Shown here: positions 3,948 to 14,155 of the stretch, one piece after another | Numbering within the stretch: position 1 is the first letter of the stretch | How the letters are laid out: every line of letters starts with the position of its first letter | From: an uncultured Alphaproteobacteria bacterium | GTDB taxonomy: Bacteria > Pseudomonadota > Alphaproteobacteria > Micavibrionales > CSBR16-224 | NCBI GenBank assembly: GCA_950054485.1 | Contig: CATLPD010000004.1 | Span: forward strand, 62,001-126,000 | DNA: 64,000 bases | Direction of reading: 5' to 3' | Notes under the pieces: generated by a model | Database searches by the model: none | Told to the model about the DNA's origin: nothing | Seen by the model: the letters and a program-made list of their open reading frames with translations, nothing else | Position numbers and translations under genes: made by a program

Positions 3948-4331
3948 TTATCTAGGTCTCTTAAAGCCTTTAGGGCGGGGAATGGTACTGTCGTGCAGCT
4001 TGACAGCCTGTTCTTTTAAACCGGCAAAGGCCAGAATTTGAACCATCGGGTGGATCACCATATTATGCCAGGCCCATTCGTTGCGCTGCCATTTTAACCT
4101 GCGCCCTTCCAATGCGGACGGCTTGACGTGCATGATGGCATCCAGTGCCTCGATCCCTTGGGAAAAATATTCCCGATCATCAAATGTGGTGATTTTGATT
4201 TTGCCGTTTTCCAGATCGGATGTGTCGATGTGTTTTATATTATCAATATGCAGGATGTTTTTACCGATACGGATAAAGGGGGCGGGCTGTGTTGCTGTTT
4301 TCCATTTTTCAATCAGTTTAATTTTTTTCAT
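3948..4331 (-). CDS. Hypothetical protein, third gene of the HTH-CoaB-aldolase operon
   Basis: A 127-residue protein I do not recognise. It is mostly polar and basic with no signal peptide or membrane segment. Visible features are a beta-rich first half (PFIRIGKNILHIDNIKHID, then KIKITTFDDREYF), reminiscent of small DUF-type domains that begin with a short strand pair, and a Trp-rich central stretch (KWQRNEWAWHNM). Its start overlaps the end of the M23-like gene by 14 nt, so translational coupling is likely and the function is probably linked to that operon. It ends 70 nt upstream of the fliK start; no terminator is seen between. The role is unknown. Confidence 0.72.
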   Translation of the reverse strand: MKKIKLIEKWKTATQPAPFIRIGKNILHIDNIKHIDTSDLENGKIKITTFDDREYFSQGIEALDAIMHVKPSALEGRRLKWQRNEWAWHNMVIHPMVQILAFAGLKEQAVKLHDSTIPRPKGFKRPR

Positions 4332-4860
4332 TTTGAATGCTTTCCAATAAATAGGGTGTAGGGTCTTTCAGACCAGATTGTCGCGCTAATCCGACAGGCC
4401 ATTCAACAGCATCGCGCACGCCATGATCATAAAGCTCCAGATGTAGCATCGACATGGGGCGTCCCTTATCGATTTTCAAAACCTGTTTGACGGTTCCGAT
4501 CAAATCGCCGGCTGATATTTTTTGCCCTGTCTTGCAGGTGGTCAATATTTCACCGTAAACAACAACGCCCGTTTTTCCTTCAACCAGAACGGCATAGGTA
4601 TTATGCCACCAGTCCGACCCGGCATGCGCGCCAGTAAAGGGAACAATGTTCACGACCGTGCCGTCTTCAACAGCAAAAACATCCGTGCCTTCCGGGCAGT
4701 ATAAATCGACCCCTTCATGAATATGGTGTTTGCGCGTTACACCAAAAGCGCCAACATGCGGGGATAGGGGCAGGGCGGTTTGCCCTGCATCCATATCTTT
4801 ATATGACATGCTGTTATCGGATGGGATCAGTTCTAGATTGATGGGCGTGCGCCAGACCAT
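4318..4860 (-). CDS. Cytoplasmic M23-like (lysostaphin-fold) protein
   Basis: A 180-residue protein with an M23 peptidase-like core: HEGVDLYCPEGTDVFAVEDG (His48-x3-Asp52) corresponds to the first zinc-ligand motif and GQKISAGDLIGTV to the conserved later strand. The second motif, normally HxH, reads HLE (140-142). The general-base histidine is therefore kept but one zinc ligand is Glu, so activity or metal use may differ. There is no signal peptide or membrane segment, unlike cell-wall M23 enzymes, so the protein should be cytoplasmic. A GGAG site precedes the ATG. It overlaps the upstream fusion gene by 28 nt and the downstream unknown gene by 14 nt, indicating one operon. Family membership is well supported; substrate is unknown. 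Confidence 0.78.
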   Translation of the reverse strand: MVWRTPINLELIPSDNSMSYKDMDAGQTALPLSPHVGAFGVTRKHHIHEGVDLYCPEGTDVFAVEDGTVVNIVPFTGAHAGSDWWHNTYAVLVEGKTGVVVYGEILTTCKTGQKISAGDLIGTVKQVLKIDKGRPMSMLHLELYDHGVRDAVEWPVGLARQSGLKDPTPYLLESIQNEKN

Positions 4861-6326
4861 GCTGCTCCAACCTTTCCGCCTGTTTTATCATCAAGATCAA
4901 AATTGCGTTCAATCACATTAATGACACGCTGGGGGTCAACATCTTTACCATAGACGATATTCGGACCGTGATTGTCCAGCATAACGCCCCAAATGCCGTC
5001 TTCGATTTCACGCAGGCCGTCCGATGTATTCTGACCGCATTCGTGACTGCCGCATTCATAAGGGCGTTGATCACGCAGGGGAATATAATCAGGTGCGTCC
5101 GATTTCAACGGGCAATGGAAATGCACAATGTTATCCAGATTTGGATGATCTTTGAAGATGATGCGCTGGCTCATCCCGCCGACTGACGGCTTGCCGCCAT
5201 AGGCAATCACATCATCGCGCCCCTTGGGTTCAATCAAAACCATCCCGTTTTGGGCAAGATCATTAAAGTTTGACCAGCGGCGGGATGTGATGATTTTCTC
5301 CTCGGGCCCGCGGGCGGCAAAATGCCCGGCCGTCACCAGACCGCGTTTTGTATCAACGGGTTTATAGGCCCCGCGCTGAATACAATGATTGACCACAGTG
5401 CGCAGATTATCGCTGATGATATCCGACTGCCAATCCACACCTTTTGAATTTTTAATCACTTTTGAGCGTGTAAATCGGCATTGTGACCGCAGGATCGCCA
5501 TATCGACCAGACCTTCCATCGCCTCGACCCGTTCGGGGGTAACGTGGTAACGCGCTTCTTCAGGCGCGACAATCATGTTCAGGCGATTAACGACATCATT
5601 CACCAGAACAAGATTGATGTGTGACCCTTTCATCAGTTTTAACCCAGCCTCGTACATTTCATCGGCACTGGCGCCTGTCGTGGTTTTAAACGCGACCAAG
5701 AACAGGTCTTTGCGGTCGCGGCGAATACCCGAGACGATTTTATCAGATGGCATCAATCGCATTGTCTGATCGCCCGCGCGTGATTTCAAGCGCTCGGCCT
5801 TGGCGTGCGGGGTAACATCACCGATATATCCTTCAAAATCACAAATCGCAGGGTTCCAGATGACAATTTTACGGGCCGGGTTTTCAACAATCTCGTTCGC
5901 CAGACGCTGCATATCATCATTTGTTTCATATTCGGATGATGAATCGGCCATGCGCGTCAGGGTCAGGTTGGTCTGATATCCGCGGCGGCGGAAAATGCCG
6001 GCAACTTCGCGTGCTGTCGATCCGTATGCGGGGGCGGACAGGGCCAGATGGTTTCTGACATGGACGATCGTGCCGCCGCCGACAACCTCGACATGCGCAT
6101 CTTTTGAATTCAGTACAGCATCATTTGTATGCGTCTTCAAAGCCTCGAACCTTTTAGTTTCATCGGCCAGCTTTTGCGTGATCGGACGGTTACCGTTTTC
6201 CAGCTTTTTATATGTGTCGCGTTTCAGCCCCAATTTTTCGGCGGCCTCGTCACGTGACCATCCCATGCGGTTGCGCCATGCGCGCAGGCCCGAACCCGTC
6301 ATATTGCTTTTTTCTTGTATTGGCAT
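4833..6326 (-). CDS. XRE-type HTH / CoaB-like / class II aldolase-like fusion protein
   Basis: A 497-residue three-domain protein. Residues 11-62 are an XRE-type helix-turn-helix (LRAWRNRMGWSRDEAAEKLG, RDTYKKLENG). Residues 77-282 resemble the CoaB (phosphopantothenoylcysteine synthetase) fold: GGGTIVHVRN near the start, then VIWNPAICDF, KIVSGIRRDRKDLFLVAFKT and NLVLVNDV, aligning with the CoaB pattern of GPTREPLDPVR, AAVADY, VGFAAET and ANDV. Residues 295-480 resemble class II aldolases/adducins, with a metal-type HFH (402-404) and a DNHGPNI strand. The start is set at the ATG at 6326, where GGAGG lies at the right distance; an ATG four codons earlier contains that site. First gene of a three-gene overlapping operon. 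It may be a ligand-sensing autoregulator, which is inference; the chemistry is unknown. Confidence 0.82.
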   Translation of the reverse strand: MPIQEKSNMTGSGLRAWRNRMGWSRDEAAEKLGLKRDTYKKLENGNRPITQKLADETKRFEALKTHTNDAVLNSKDAHVEVVGGGTIVHVRNHLALSAPAYGSTAREVAGIFRRRGYQTNLTLTRMADSSSEYETNDDMQRLANEIVENPARKIVIWNPAICDFEGYIGDVTPHAKAERLKSRAGDQTMRLMPSDKIVSGIRRDRKDLFLVAFKTTTGASADEMYEAGLKLMKGSHINLVLVNDVVNRLNMIVAPEEARYHVTPERVEAMEGLVDMAILRSQCRFTRSKVIKNSKGVDWQSDIISDNLRTVVNHCIQRGAYKPVDTKRGLVTAGHFAARGPEEKIITSRRWSNFNDLAQNGMVLIEPKGRDDVIAYGGKPSVGGMSQRIIFKDHPNLDNIVHFHCPLKSDAPDYIPLRDQRPYECGSHECGQNTSDGLREIEDGIWGVMLDNHGPNIVYGKDVDPQRVINVIERNFDLDDKTGGKVGAAWSGARPSI

Positions 6327-6347
6327 TCTATCCTCCATTTTTTTTAT

Positions 6348-6362
6348 GGGTATTTAATACCC
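6348..6362. promoter_or_regulatory. Palindromic operator copy 1 (GGGTATTTAATACCC)
   Basis: Perfect inverted repeat with 7-bp arms around one central T, ending 10 nt upstream of the ATG at 6338. A second copy lies 28 bp away. Position directly before a gene encoding an XRE-type DNA-binding domain suggests an autoregulatory operator; this is inference. Confidence 0.6.
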
Positions 6363-6376
6363 GATAATTCGTACAA

Positions 6377-6389
6377 GGTATTTAATACC
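6377..6389. promoter_or_regulatory. Palindromic operator copy 2 (GGTATTTAATACC)
   Basis: Perfect inverted repeat with 6-bp arms around one T. Its core of 14 bases is identical to copy 1, and the centres (6355 and 6383) are 28 bp apart. Tandem identical operators separated by under three helical turns fit cooperative binding of two repressor dimers. Confidence 0.6.
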
Positions 6390-6412
6390 CGCCTAAGATG
6401 ATTCGGTCAAAT

Positions 6413-6443
6413 AAAAAAACCGCCTCTGAAAGATCAGAGGCGG
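6413..6443 (-). terminator. Terminator of the flgI-flgJ-flgN-like operon
   Basis: On the minus strand, a perfect 10-bp stem (CCGCCTCTGA pairing with TCAGAGGCGG, 4-nt loop) is followed by seven U residues. It lies 41 nt past the stop of the flgN-like gene and separates the flagellar operon from the HTH-CoaB-aldolase operon. Confidence 0.9.
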
Positions 6444-6483
6444 CTGCCACACAAAAGTGTAAATATATACTATTGATATAGAA

Positions 6484-10742: not shown

Positions 10743-10829
10743 GTCCTGTAAGGTCTGTATTGATTAATGAAAAGTTAATTTCTTACAGGGCGCGGGATAG
10801 ATTATACCGTGTTTTAAGATGGGTTGGCA
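10743..10829 (+). promoter_or_regulatory. Leader and possible promoter region of the VWA gene
   Basis: A TTTACA (10725-10730) and TAAGGT (10748-10753) with 17-bp spacing could form a sigma-70 promoter starting near 10760. If so, a TTG at 10760 would lie at the start of the transcript, which favours the ATG at 10829 as translation start. Confidence 0.3.
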
Positions 10830-13800
10830 TGTCTGATAAAGATAAAAAACAAACACAAAAAGACTTCAACGCTCACCGCAAGGCGCGGGAAACCATCCTG
10901 CGCGAACCGCTGACCAAGCACCGTCTGACACTTAAACAAAAAATTGCTGACGCCAGAAACCCTGAAAATCCAAAGCCTTTTACTTTTGAAGATTTGAGCG
11001 ATTTCATAAACAATCTGCCAAACCAGAGCGATGTTTATTATAAAGAGGTTGCCAAATGTCAGCACCTTATCAAAACGGGTGAGGTTCCAAAGTCACCGAA
11101 TCTGAAAACGCCGGAAACGCAATTGGTATGGGCTGCAACATTGGCCCACGTGGTTTATAATCCGCAGATTATGCAGGGCTGGACAACGCCAGTTGATCCA
11201 GACAAATTCTACGAAAGCGATGCCTGGAAAAAAACAGTCAATTCCCTAGACTCTTTGAAAGAATTACGCCAGGTTGGCGGTTTCGTTATCGAATCTTTAC
11301 GCGACCAGGATACAAAATACGCCTATGGACGTCCGACGGAACCGACACATTACAATCCACGCAACAACAGATTGGCTGTTAACTTTATCGACAGCCTGAC
11401 CAGCGGTTTCGAACACACACGTGCTCTTGCGATGCGTGAAATCGGCAAGGCGCTTTATTCGCGCAAAGTCACACCGAAGATGCAGGCCTTGCAAAAAGAC
11501 CTATTCCCGCTGATGCGCAAACGTAATGCGGCTAAAGCGAAAAAAGGACCCGGGCTGACCGAGGAAGAATACAAAACCTACATGGTTAAAACTGTAGAGT
11601 ATAATTTACGGGAAATGCTGTATGAAGCCTGTGAAAAGAATATGCGTAATCATTTCGCATCCAGCCGTGGTGATGTAAAGCAGCAGGATTTCAGTGTGTC
11701 GCTGAACCATTCGGCGGTGACATCCGAGTTTTTGGGCTTGGTACGCGCACCGCAGGGTGATGATATTCCGGTATCGCTGACGTACTTCATGAATTTGGTC
11801 AATATGGTCAATCTGAATTACTATCAAAAGAACAAGTTTTTTGCCGATACGAATGAAGGCTGGCGCCGTGCGGGGGTTGACCCGAACCACATTCGCAAGG
11901 TCAGCGCGGACAAGCCAATTATGCAGGACAAGAACGGTATCGCTCATCCTGATTTTAAATATCTGCAAGAGTTGCTGGGCGGCAAAGACGGACTTGAAAC
12001 ACGATATCCGCCTTTGCAGCAACGTCTTCTGGGTAACTTTGAAAAGAAAATTATGGCCTCTGCCGATGCCAGAAATGAAATTATAGAGCATATATCTGAA
12101 GAATATGCGGAGCTTTTGATACAAGAATATTTGAAAAAATATCAGGACAAGCTTGAACAGGATATCGAAAACAAAAAGAACCAGAATAATCAGGATCAGG
12201 ACCAGTCCAACGATCAAAATCAGGATCCTAATCAGTCACAAGATGGCCAGCCGCAGGATGGGCAAGACCCACAAGACGGTCAGCCGCAGGATGGGCAAGA
12301 CCCACAAGACGGTCAGCCACAGGATGGACAAGATCCACAAGATGGTCAGCCGCAGGATGGACAAGACCCACAAGACGGCCAGCCGCAGGATGGACAAAAA
12401 CCGCAAGACGGTCAGCCGCAGGATGGACAAAAACCACAAGACGGCCAGCCACAGGATGGACAAAAACCGCAAGACGGTCAGCCACAGGATGGACAAGACC
12501 CACAAGACGGCCAGCCACAGGATGGACAAAAACCGCAAGATGGTCAGCCGCAGGATGGACAAGACTCTCAAGATGGTCAGCCGCAGGATGGACAAGGCTC
12601 TCAAGATGGTCAGCCGCAAGACGGTGATTCCCAAGATAGCAGTCTTGATGCTGAAGGCGACGATCAGGACCTGCCGGATTTTGCCAAGGAAAATAAACAA
12701 GACGACAAGGGGCAGGATGGCCAAGATGGTCAAGACGGGGAACCTCAAGAAGGTGATGGCCAAGATGGTCAAGGACAAGATGGGCAATCACAAGACGGTC
12801 AGCCGCAAGATGGTCAACAGCAAAGTGGCTCTGACGGCGATGACACCGTGCCTGTTGAAGATGTAGGTGATATGCCGGATGCAGGTGATTCAGATTCTCT
12901 TGAAGATGCCGAAAAACAAGATGCAGACGGGCAGGACGCCGATGGTCAAGATGGCCAAGACTCTGATGGCCAAGACGGCCAGGACGCTGATGGACAAGAC
13001 GGACAAGATGGTCAGGATGCCTCGGGCGAGGGATCTGACGGCGAGGGCATGACCAACGAAGAGCTGGATGATATGATCAACCAGAAACAAAAAGAGGAAG
13101 ATGCCCAGAACGGACAGGATGGTCAAGGTCAAGACGGACAAGCTAAAGATGGCAAGCCCAGCGATCAGGCCGGTAAGGGCGATGGGCAGGACCTGAAGGA
13201 GCTTTCGGAGCGTGATTGGAATGACTATCAACAGCGTATCAGCGAGCTTAGCGGTCCGATTATACGCGTTCGCCGTATGCTGAAAAAGATTCAGGAACGC
13301 CAGCTTCAGGAAGCGATCAAGCGCGACAATAAAATGGATATCATCCCTGAAGACAGTGATGTAATGGATCGCTTTAACATGGATGCCCATAAAAATCTGA
13401 TCATTAAAAAAGCAATGGGCGACGTTAAAGAAGAAGACCTAAAGCGTTTCCGCAAGGACCGTGTCGAACAGGTGCCGACCAGCATCGATATTGTCATTAT
13501 GATTGACGGTTCCGGTTCTATGAACGGTGTACCGTTGAATTCAGCCATCCAGACAGCCGCAATTTTGAACGAGGCTGCACGTGGCAAAGACATGAATATT
13601 AATGTTTATGTCGGTTTGTGGGGGAACAATACACCGCCGATCCGTATTACGCCGGAAACCAAAAAACAGGATATTGGAGCTATACTTGAGCATTCAAGAC
13701 AGGGCCTCAAATCCGGAACCAGCATGGCCCCAATGTTTGAAGTGATTGCGGATACGGTATCCAAGCAGCGTGCAAAACAGCAGGTTCTGGGTGGCTTTAC

Positions 13801-14155
13801 GCATATTATGGCTGTGTCAGATGGTGAAATTTCAGATGCTGCGGAGTCTAAAAAGAAAATCGAGGAATTATTCCAGGCCAATAAAATGGTCACTTTTGAT
13901 GTCGCGATTTTGCAAAAATACAATCAAAGCGACAAATCAATGGAAAAGGCCGTAAAAGATTTGAAGGGCAGCAAGCCTTGGCAAAAAGTCACAGTGACAA
14001 AACGCACGGAAAAAGAAGCGAACGATATTCCGTTTGCCATGACGAGCGCCTTGTTTGACAAAATCAGAAAATGCCGCAGCTTTACGGCTGTGCCGATTTC
14101 CAAAAAGAAATCAGATATGCGCAAGGCTGCCAACAGGTTGAAAAACAAAAAGTAA
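10829..14155 (+). CDS. Giant VWA-domain protein with Gln-Asp-Gly repeat linker (CobT-like architecture)
   Basis: About 1108 residues from the first ATG. The alternative TTG at 10760 would add 23 basic residues; it has AAGG 7 nt upstream, so the start is uncertain. Residues 1-450 are a helical, Lys-rich globular part I do not recognise. Residues ~455-780 are low complexity, rich in Gln, Asp, Gly and Pro, including eleven 11-residue repeats. The C-terminal part is a VWA domain with a MIDAS motif DGSGS starting near residue 893, a TSMAPM segment and VSDGE, so metal-dependent protein binding is likely. There is no signal peptide. VWA proteins with acidic linkers (CobT) pair with MoxR/CobS AAA+ ATPases, and one follows 62 nt downstream. 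Function inferred: substrate-recruiting partner of that ATPase. Confidence 0.85.
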   Translation: MSDKDKKQTQKDFNAHRKARETILREPLTKHRLTLKQKIADARNPENPKPFTFEDLSDFINNLPNQSDVYYKEVAKCQHLIKTGEVPKSPNLKTPETQLVWAATLAHVVYNPQIMQGWTTPVDPDKFYESDAWKKTVNSLDSLKELRQVGGFVIESLRDQDTKYAYGRPTEPTHYNPRNNRLAVNFIDSLTSGFEHTRALAMREIGKALYSRKVTPKMQALQKDLFPLMRKRNAAKAKKGPGLTEEEYKTYMVKTVEYNLREMLYEACEKNMRNHFASSRGDVKQQDFSVSLNHSAVTSEFLGLVRAPQGDDIPVSLTYFMNLVNMVNLNYYQKNKFFADTNEGWRRAGVDPNHIRKVSADKPIMQDKNGIAHPDFKYLQELLGGKDGLETRYPPLQQRLLGNFEKKIMASADARNEIIEHISEEYAELLIQEYLKKYQDKLEQDIENKKNQNNQDQDQSNDQNQDPNQSQDGQPQDGQDPQDGQPQDGQDPQDGQPQDGQDPQDGQPQDGQDPQDGQPQDGQKPQDGQPQDGQKPQDGQPQDGQKPQDGQPQDGQDPQDGQPQDGQKPQDGQPQDGQDSQDGQPQDGQGSQDGQPQDGDSQDSSLDAEGDDQDLPDFAKENKQDDKGQDGQDGQDGEPQEGDGQDGQGQDGQSQDGQPQDGQQQSGSDGDDTVPVEDVGDMPDAGDSDSLEDAEKQDADGQDADGQDGQDSDGQDGQDADGQDGQDGQDASGEGSDGEGMTNEELDDMINQKQKEEDAQNGQDGQGQDGQAKDGKPSDQAGKGDGQDLKELSERDWNDYQQRISELSGPIIRVRRMLKKIQERQLQEAIKRDNKMDIIPEDSDVMDRFNMDAHKNLIIKKAMGDVKEEDLKRFRKDRVEQVPTSIDIVIMIDGSGSMNGVPLNSAIQTAAILNEAARGKDMNINVYVGLWGNNTPPIRITPETKKQDIGAILEHSRQGLKSGTSMAPMFEVIADTVSKQRAKQQVLGGFTHIMAVSDGEISDAAESKKKIEELFQANKMVTFDVAILQKYNQSDKSMEKAVKDLKGSKPWQKVTVTKRTEKEANDIPFAMTSALFDKIRKCRSFTAVPISKKKSDMRKAANRLKNKK
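12248..12625 (+). repeat. In-frame 33-bp tandem repeat (11 units plus partial)
   Basis: Eleven successive 33-bp units encode variants of QPQDGQ(D/K/G)(P/S)QDG, followed by a twelfth partial QPQDG. Units differ by a few synonymous and conservative changes, for example DP, KP, DS and GS at positions 7-8. Shorter QDG-type repeats continue to about 13025. The repeat is coding, lies in the linker of the VWA protein, and is a likely site of length variation. Confidence 0.95.

Follow-up and report, generated by a model that had tools for sequence, protein, structure and literature searches.

The gene at 4833-6326 of the window (the whole stretch of 64,000 nucleotides that was analysed) raises the question what is achieved by a protein that seems to join a DNA-binding domain and two enzyme folds in one chain. 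An earlier note, made from the letters of the DNA, had read an XRE-type HTH, a CoaB-like fold and an aldolase/adducin fold from it, had called this plan undescribed and had supposed that a metabolite of the enzyme part controls the gene itself. The gene and its domains are placed as follows:

4833 to 6326, reverse strand: HTH-CoaB-aldolase fusion gene, its reading frame open from an ATG at 6338
6168 to 6287, reverse strand: XRE/HTH_3 DNA-binding domain, residues 18-57 (Pfam; helices in the model)
5484 to 6101, reverse strand: CoaB-like domain, residues about 80-285 (profiles, Foldseek)
4869 to 5480, reverse strand: class II aldolase-fold domain, residues about 287-490 (Pfam, alignments, Foldseek)

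The open reading frame 4833-6338 (reverse strand) has 501 codons. Judged by the GGAGG at 6332-6336, translation likely starts at the second ATG (6326), which gives a product of 497 amino acids. All residue numbers used here count from the ATG at 6338 and equal those of the earlier note plus 4. In Pfam searches HTH_3 matched residues 18-57 (E 3.8e-8, 33.7 bits against a cut-off of 23) and Aldolase_II (PF00596) residues 335-410 (24.4 bits against 22.2). The CoaB model TIGR00521 of NCBIfam matched weakly, at E 3.3e-7 and far under its equivalog cut-off, and a strong match was obtained for residues 83-264 with PHROG_35624, a phage family without assigned function (E 2.4e-34). A profile built from 69 homologues matched the CoaB-like structure 2gk4 at 7e-12, and in Pfam searches of these 69 members Aldolase_II was recognised in 64 and DFP/CoaB in 39.

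The AlphaFold model of the fusion reached a pLDDT of 91.9 and retrieved CoaB chains in Foldseek with E values from 3e-9 to 1e-7. When the aldolase domain was modelled separately (pLDDT 92.1), Foldseek matched it at E about 1e-5 to structures of AraD, FucA, the MtnB type and YgbL, and the Fe enzymes POD, TqaM and NovR were also among its matches. The BFVD fold search gave HTH-type matches only, the huge-phage homologues being absent. Because profiles, predicted structure and Foldseek agree, the presence of an XRE HTH, a CoaB-like and a class II aldolase-like domain in a single protein is confirmed at the level of prediction. Thus the profile and structure searches bear out all three folds of the earlier note, and its HFH metal motif (402-404 there, 406-408 here) belongs to an HxH kept in 69/69 members. 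A limited literature search found no described HTH-CoaB-aldolase protein either, in line with what the note had said of the plan.

Besides the window genome, the order has the three-domain fusion in eight genomes or MAGs (70-76% identity). Seven were found in the first collection, with 71-76% identity (G008, G020, G035, G040, G047, G049 and G052, the G047 copy being broken by a gap), and a second genome collection adds one MAG (L021, 72% identity). The three-domain reading frame is intact in independent genomes and a misassembly is therefore excluded. Among the 385 genomes of the class and 398 of the phylum that were sampled, no other bacterium carries the fusion or the two-domain form, and the class survey gave one weak match, confined to the CoaB-like part (G303); rare carriers may exist beyond these genomes. 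Without the HTH, the two-domain form was found in LR756511 (595 kb) and on at least 120 viral contigs, with lengths of 270-580 kb in several cases. The pairing of a CoaB-like with an aldolase-like domain is thus otherwise mainly a property of giant bacteriophages. Neither this phage family nor the conserved cassette of two or three genes described below had been recognised in the earlier note.

The CoaB-like part also stands by itself in phages of Caulobacter and Pseudomonas. A CoaB-like gene with a neighbouring gene for an ArgC-like semialdehyde dehydrogenase is found in G001, G011 and Variovorax plasmids; on three unrelated replicons (L064 7698-9423, L065 2004-3757, L078 5995-7567) the ArgC-like gene follows the CoaB-like gene directly, which represents a second, separate pairing of the CoaB-like family. 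One phage locus, L111, had appeared to carry an HTH from its tblastn span and was rejected, its reading frame beginning after the HTH stretch. In the CoaB tree the bacterial clade is separate with a support of 100 and lies beside the phage clade, not inside it; the HTH-bearing bacterial forms cluster together (SH-aLRT 86). No phage-to-bacterium direction was read from this tree, as its root is uncertain and long branches meet.

The residues expected at the two active sites were compared over the 69 members. In the CoaB-like half the cation-binding Asp (D281 in Msm CoaB) is represented by D167 in 69/69, and the GFAxET and AND motifs are retained in the forms AFKTT and VND. The substrate loop DPVR..N.SSG (R207 and N211 in Msm) is not kept and reads hVRNHLAL.APAYG instead. 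The K-x-K-K loop is not kept either, being R-x-K or variable, with R183 invariant and K185 present in 38/69. In Msm CoaB this loop contacts CTP, and D281 coordinates the cation (PMC7794376).

In the aldolase-like half the metal-binding histidines H406, H408 and H457 are present in 69/69 and align with the HTH and HGP motifs of AraD. The position of the catalytic Glu73 of FucA or Asp76 of AraD is taken by G387, a glycine in 69/69, so that an aldolase function of the C-terminal part, as its name in the earlier note might imply, is unsupported. An extra CGSxxCG motif is invariant in the family and E428 is conserved in 67/69. A comparable case is pyruvic oxime dioxygenase (POD), which has lost Glu73, keeps the metal site and has another Glu there (PMC11841055). 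Judged by this conservation, both halves look selected for chemistry, though for another one than CoaB and standard aldolases perform. We think it probable that the fusion is catalytically active.

Two further genes follow the fusion gene in the window, first one for an M23-like protein and then orf3:

4318 to 4860, reverse strand: M23-fold protein of 180 amino acids, with YGE for YGH, LHLEL for HLHFE and no evident signal peptide
3948 to 4331, reverse strand: orf3, 127 amino acids, of a family also found downstream of CoaB-aldolase genes in phages

This order is kept in the relatives. In G040 and L021 only the M23-like gene is missing from the cassette, and in G049 the contig ends within it. 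In G042 a CoaB-like gene is directly followed by the M23-like gene, with neither HTH nor aldolase part. An M23-like gene whose product is 46% identical to that of the window overlaps the CoaB-like gene of Pseudomonas phage Astolliot. M23 peptidases carry the motif HLHFE. Since Glu replaces the His of YGH and LHLEL replaces HLHFE, the M23-like protein is probably not a peptidase. This M23-fold family (window 4318-4860; L077 5579-6256), which has an altered catalytic His and lacks an evident signal peptide, adjoins CoaB-like genes at every locus examined here. Clustering places an orf3 homologue near the phage CoaB-aldolase gene in 14/72 non-redundant phage loci, and tblastn does so in about 19/72; all lie downstream, and several begin at the stop codon of the CoaB-aldolase gene. 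Other neighbours in the phages (loci L068-L166) encode ADP-ribosylglycohydrolase (14/72), CYTH (12/72), RNA ligase (8/72), Thg1 (5/72) and PTH2 (5/72); these raw counts may hint at a pathway.

The flanks of the cassette vary by genus. In the window they are flagellar genes; in g6 and G040 genes resembling those for alpha2-macroglobulin and a penicillin-binding protein lie to the left and an upp-like gene to the right, and in G020 and G052 a NadE-like gene flanks the cassette (all names by eye). The latter gene encodes a large NAD-synthetase-like protein (GVSGTDS, by eye) and is convergent to the cassette (L058 10779-12797 and L060 7842-9893). In G003, which belongs to the same family as the window genome, flgI-flgJ-flgN and fliK-flgD stand in the same order and an unrelated reverse-strand gene replaces the cassette. 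As the gene order is kept while the flanks differ, and as G003 is without the cassette at the same position, we conclude that the cassette was moved or inserted as one unit. Elsewhere in the window (10760-14155, forward strand) a 1131-aa ORF carries a long series of repeats of the DGQPQ/DGQDPQ type; its C-terminal part is VWA-like and, by eye, CobT-like.

Upstream of the fusion gene the following elements were found:

6348 to 6362, strand not assigned: predicted operator A, GGGTATTTAATACCC, an exact palindrome (footprint over 8 genomes)
6376 to 6390, strand not assigned: predicted operator B, AGGTATTTAATACCC, with one mismatch (footprint over 8 genomes)
6382 to 6410, reverse strand: candidate promoter TTGACC-17-TATTAA, read by eye, its -10 within operator B
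6418 to 6445, reverse strand: terminator-like hairpin between the cassette and the flgN-like gene

The 15-bp palindrome GGGTATTWAATACCC, that is GGGTA-N5-TACCC, occurs as a pair upstream of all eight orthologs aligned, despite their differing flanks, and beyond this pair and the ribosome-binding site the eight regions show no upstream conservation. The distance between the paired sites varies (15, 20, 21 or 28 bp). In 55 genomes of the order there are eight exact matches to GGGTATTWAATACCC, seven of them at fusion promoters. The eighth, in G024 (L085), looks like chance, as no fusion, CoaB-like or HTH gene adjoins it. With up to one mismatch, the window genome contains only the two sites at the fusion promoter, and hence no further members of a regulon; a reversed-pattern control gave scattered matches, as expected by chance. 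Because paired palindromes precede every ortholog examined and occur nowhere else in the window genome, the fusion protein very probably regulates its own gene. We infer repression rather than activation, since the candidate -10 overlaps operator B; this promoter was not among the output of the promoter scan. The hairpin resembles a terminator and may insulate the cassette from the flgN-like gene. Of the earlier proposal that a metabolite controls its own gene, the control of the own gene is strongly supported.

A CoA-related effector, to which the ligands named in the earlier note for a binding test point, is not supported. The window genome (G000), which is 99.99% complete, has CoaE, and single-family profile searches gave no CoaC match and no CoaB above the cut-off in it. 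From this, and from the CoaB fold, one could suppose that the fusion provides the CoaB activity for CoA synthesis in a genome without CoaBC. However, full CoaBC is present in 7/7 fusion-bearing relatives searched, G003, G004 and G006 have matches to neither protein, the window genome offers no CoaC partner, and the N-SSG loop and K-x-K-K are changed. We regard this supply of CoaB activity as highly improbable and dropped it as main reading; more generally a role in CoA synthesis is unlikely because the fusion-bearing relatives have their own CoaBC, even if some genes may be hidden by incomplete assemblies. CoaBC matches are missing not only from these three genomes of the order but also from G013, G014, G032, G037, G044, G046, G053 and G054, which may mean that CoA synthesis was lost repeatedly or that the proteins diverged strongly. 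A second CoaE-family match in the window genome (G000:C4:31659-32204) lies within a 651-aa open frame, thus within a larger protein, and G001 has a similar match within a 402-aa frame.

The explanation we favour, with somewhat better than even confidence, is that the fusion is a self-repressing enzyme-regulator derived from the huge-phage CoaB-aldolase family and working by a logic like that of NadR. The gene would encode a regulator of the trigger-enzyme type. Its N-terminal HTH, probably as a dimer, would bind both 15-bp palindromes, which overlap or follow the promoter, and so repress the cassette of fusion, M23-like gene and orf3. The C-terminal half would be a two-domain enzyme of the huge-phage family, in which the CoaB-like domain binds nucleotide and metal and probably activates a carboxylate, while the metal site of the class II aldolase fold, with altered chemistry, handles the same or a connected small molecule. 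Binding or turnover of this molecule would alter operator binding, and the cassette would be switched on when the substrate is present. Several observations argue for this explanation: the palindrome pair at 8/8 orthologs and 7/8 of the exact matches at fusion promoters, the retained Asp of the nucleotide site with the AND and GFAxET equivalents, the three invariant metal histidines, and a cassette order kept amid different flanks together with a common group of the HTH forms. Against it stand the differences of both active sites from known enzymes, the inconstant operator spacing and a promoter read by eye.

The same active-site differences could mean that the enzyme halves are a pseudo-enzyme that senses a ligand, serving only for ligand binding and oligomerisation in a repressor of the M23-like and orf3 genes. 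Glycine in place of the catalytic Glu/Asp in every member, the loss of K-x-K-K and the adjoining M23-like protein, which also lacks its catalytic His, agree with this. However, phage members without HTH keep the same residues, including the three metal histidines and CGSxxCG, which suggests that chemistry is under selection, and we consider a pseudo-enzyme quite unlikely. About as doubtful is that the aldolase-fold domain acts as a mononuclear Fe(II) oxygenase of the POD/TqaM/NovR type and not as a lyase, on a substrate activated by the CoaB-like domain, a variant of the favoured explanation. The presence of these three enzymes beside AraD and FucA in the Foldseek output, the loss of Glu73 in POD with another Glu placed at its metal site, and E428 of the fusion family point in this direction, but the Zn aldolases rank equal or higher in Foldseek.

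The cassette could also be a mobile, phage-derived or phage-related accessory element for phage-host conflict (anti-phage or superinfection), silenced by its own repressor. This would suit a family otherwise found mostly in phages, the patchy presence and differing insertion sites, with another gene in the flagellar order of G003, and phage neighbours including RNA ligase, Thg1, PTH2 and ADP-ribosylglycohydrolase. On the other hand, neither an integrase nor a repeat was noticed adjoining the cassette, and the bacterial clade lies beside the phage clade and not within it. A known defence system was rejected, PADLOC having matched the HTH alone and no defence effector model. A conflict cassette is unlikely in our estimate, if a little less so than a pseudo-enzyme or an Fe(II) oxygenase.

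Taken further, the self-repressing enzyme-regulator would belong to a new family of metabolic enzymes in huge phages, shared by one alphaproteobacterial order, in which it gained an HTH and became a self-repressing metabolite sensor; its chemistry would combine nucleotide-dependent activation of a carboxylate with an unconventional metal reaction on the class II aldolase fold. We offer this wider reading tentatively, at less than even confidence. If it is true, the substrate would lead to a phage pathway not yet described, for which the phage neighbours could hint at a link to RNA repair or ADP-ribose metabolism. Huge phages widely carry CoaB-aldolase proteins, for which a limited literature search found no function; the bacterial HTH with its conserved operator could serve as a reporter for ligand screening and thus as a handle on the function of the phage family. 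The fusion would add another enzyme that switches its own transcription, and comparison of the genomes defines its operator sharply.

With CoaB (2gk4, 1u7z, Msm CoaB) the fusion shares the fold, the cation-binding Asp and the AND and GFAxET-like motifs, but it is without CoaC, the N-SSG loop and K-x-K-K and has an aldolase partner instead. With the class II aldolases and their relatives (FucA, AraD, MtnB, YgbL; POD, TqaM, NovR) it has the fold and three metal histidines in common, whereas an invariant Gly stands for Glu73 of FucA or Asp76 of AraD and CGSxxCG is added; in the lack of Glu73 it resembles POD. The huge-phage CoaB-aldolase proteins and PHROG_35624 are of the same protein family, the two-domain form being 45-53% identical to the fusion over the common part, but the phage loci are without the HTH and these operators, and in the phages of Caulobacter and Pseudomonas the family is represented by the CoaB-like part only. 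By prediction the fusion shows the architecture of trigger enzymes of the NadR/PutA/BirA type, DNA-binding and enzyme-fold domains in one chain. NadR of enterobacteria consists of an XRE-type HTH, an NMN adenylyltransferase and a ribosylnicotinamide kinase and controls NAD genes. The particular combination of the fusion remains without a counterpart in the limited literature search, while an HTH followed by two enzyme domains is precedented. The enzyme domains of NadR are unrelated to those of the fusion, and NadR acts on NAD genes, whereas the fusion operator in the window genome was found only at its own promoter. Both have an N-terminal HTH and two enzyme domains, and the metabolite-responsive control that NadR exerts on its own pathway is the logic that we propose for the fusion.
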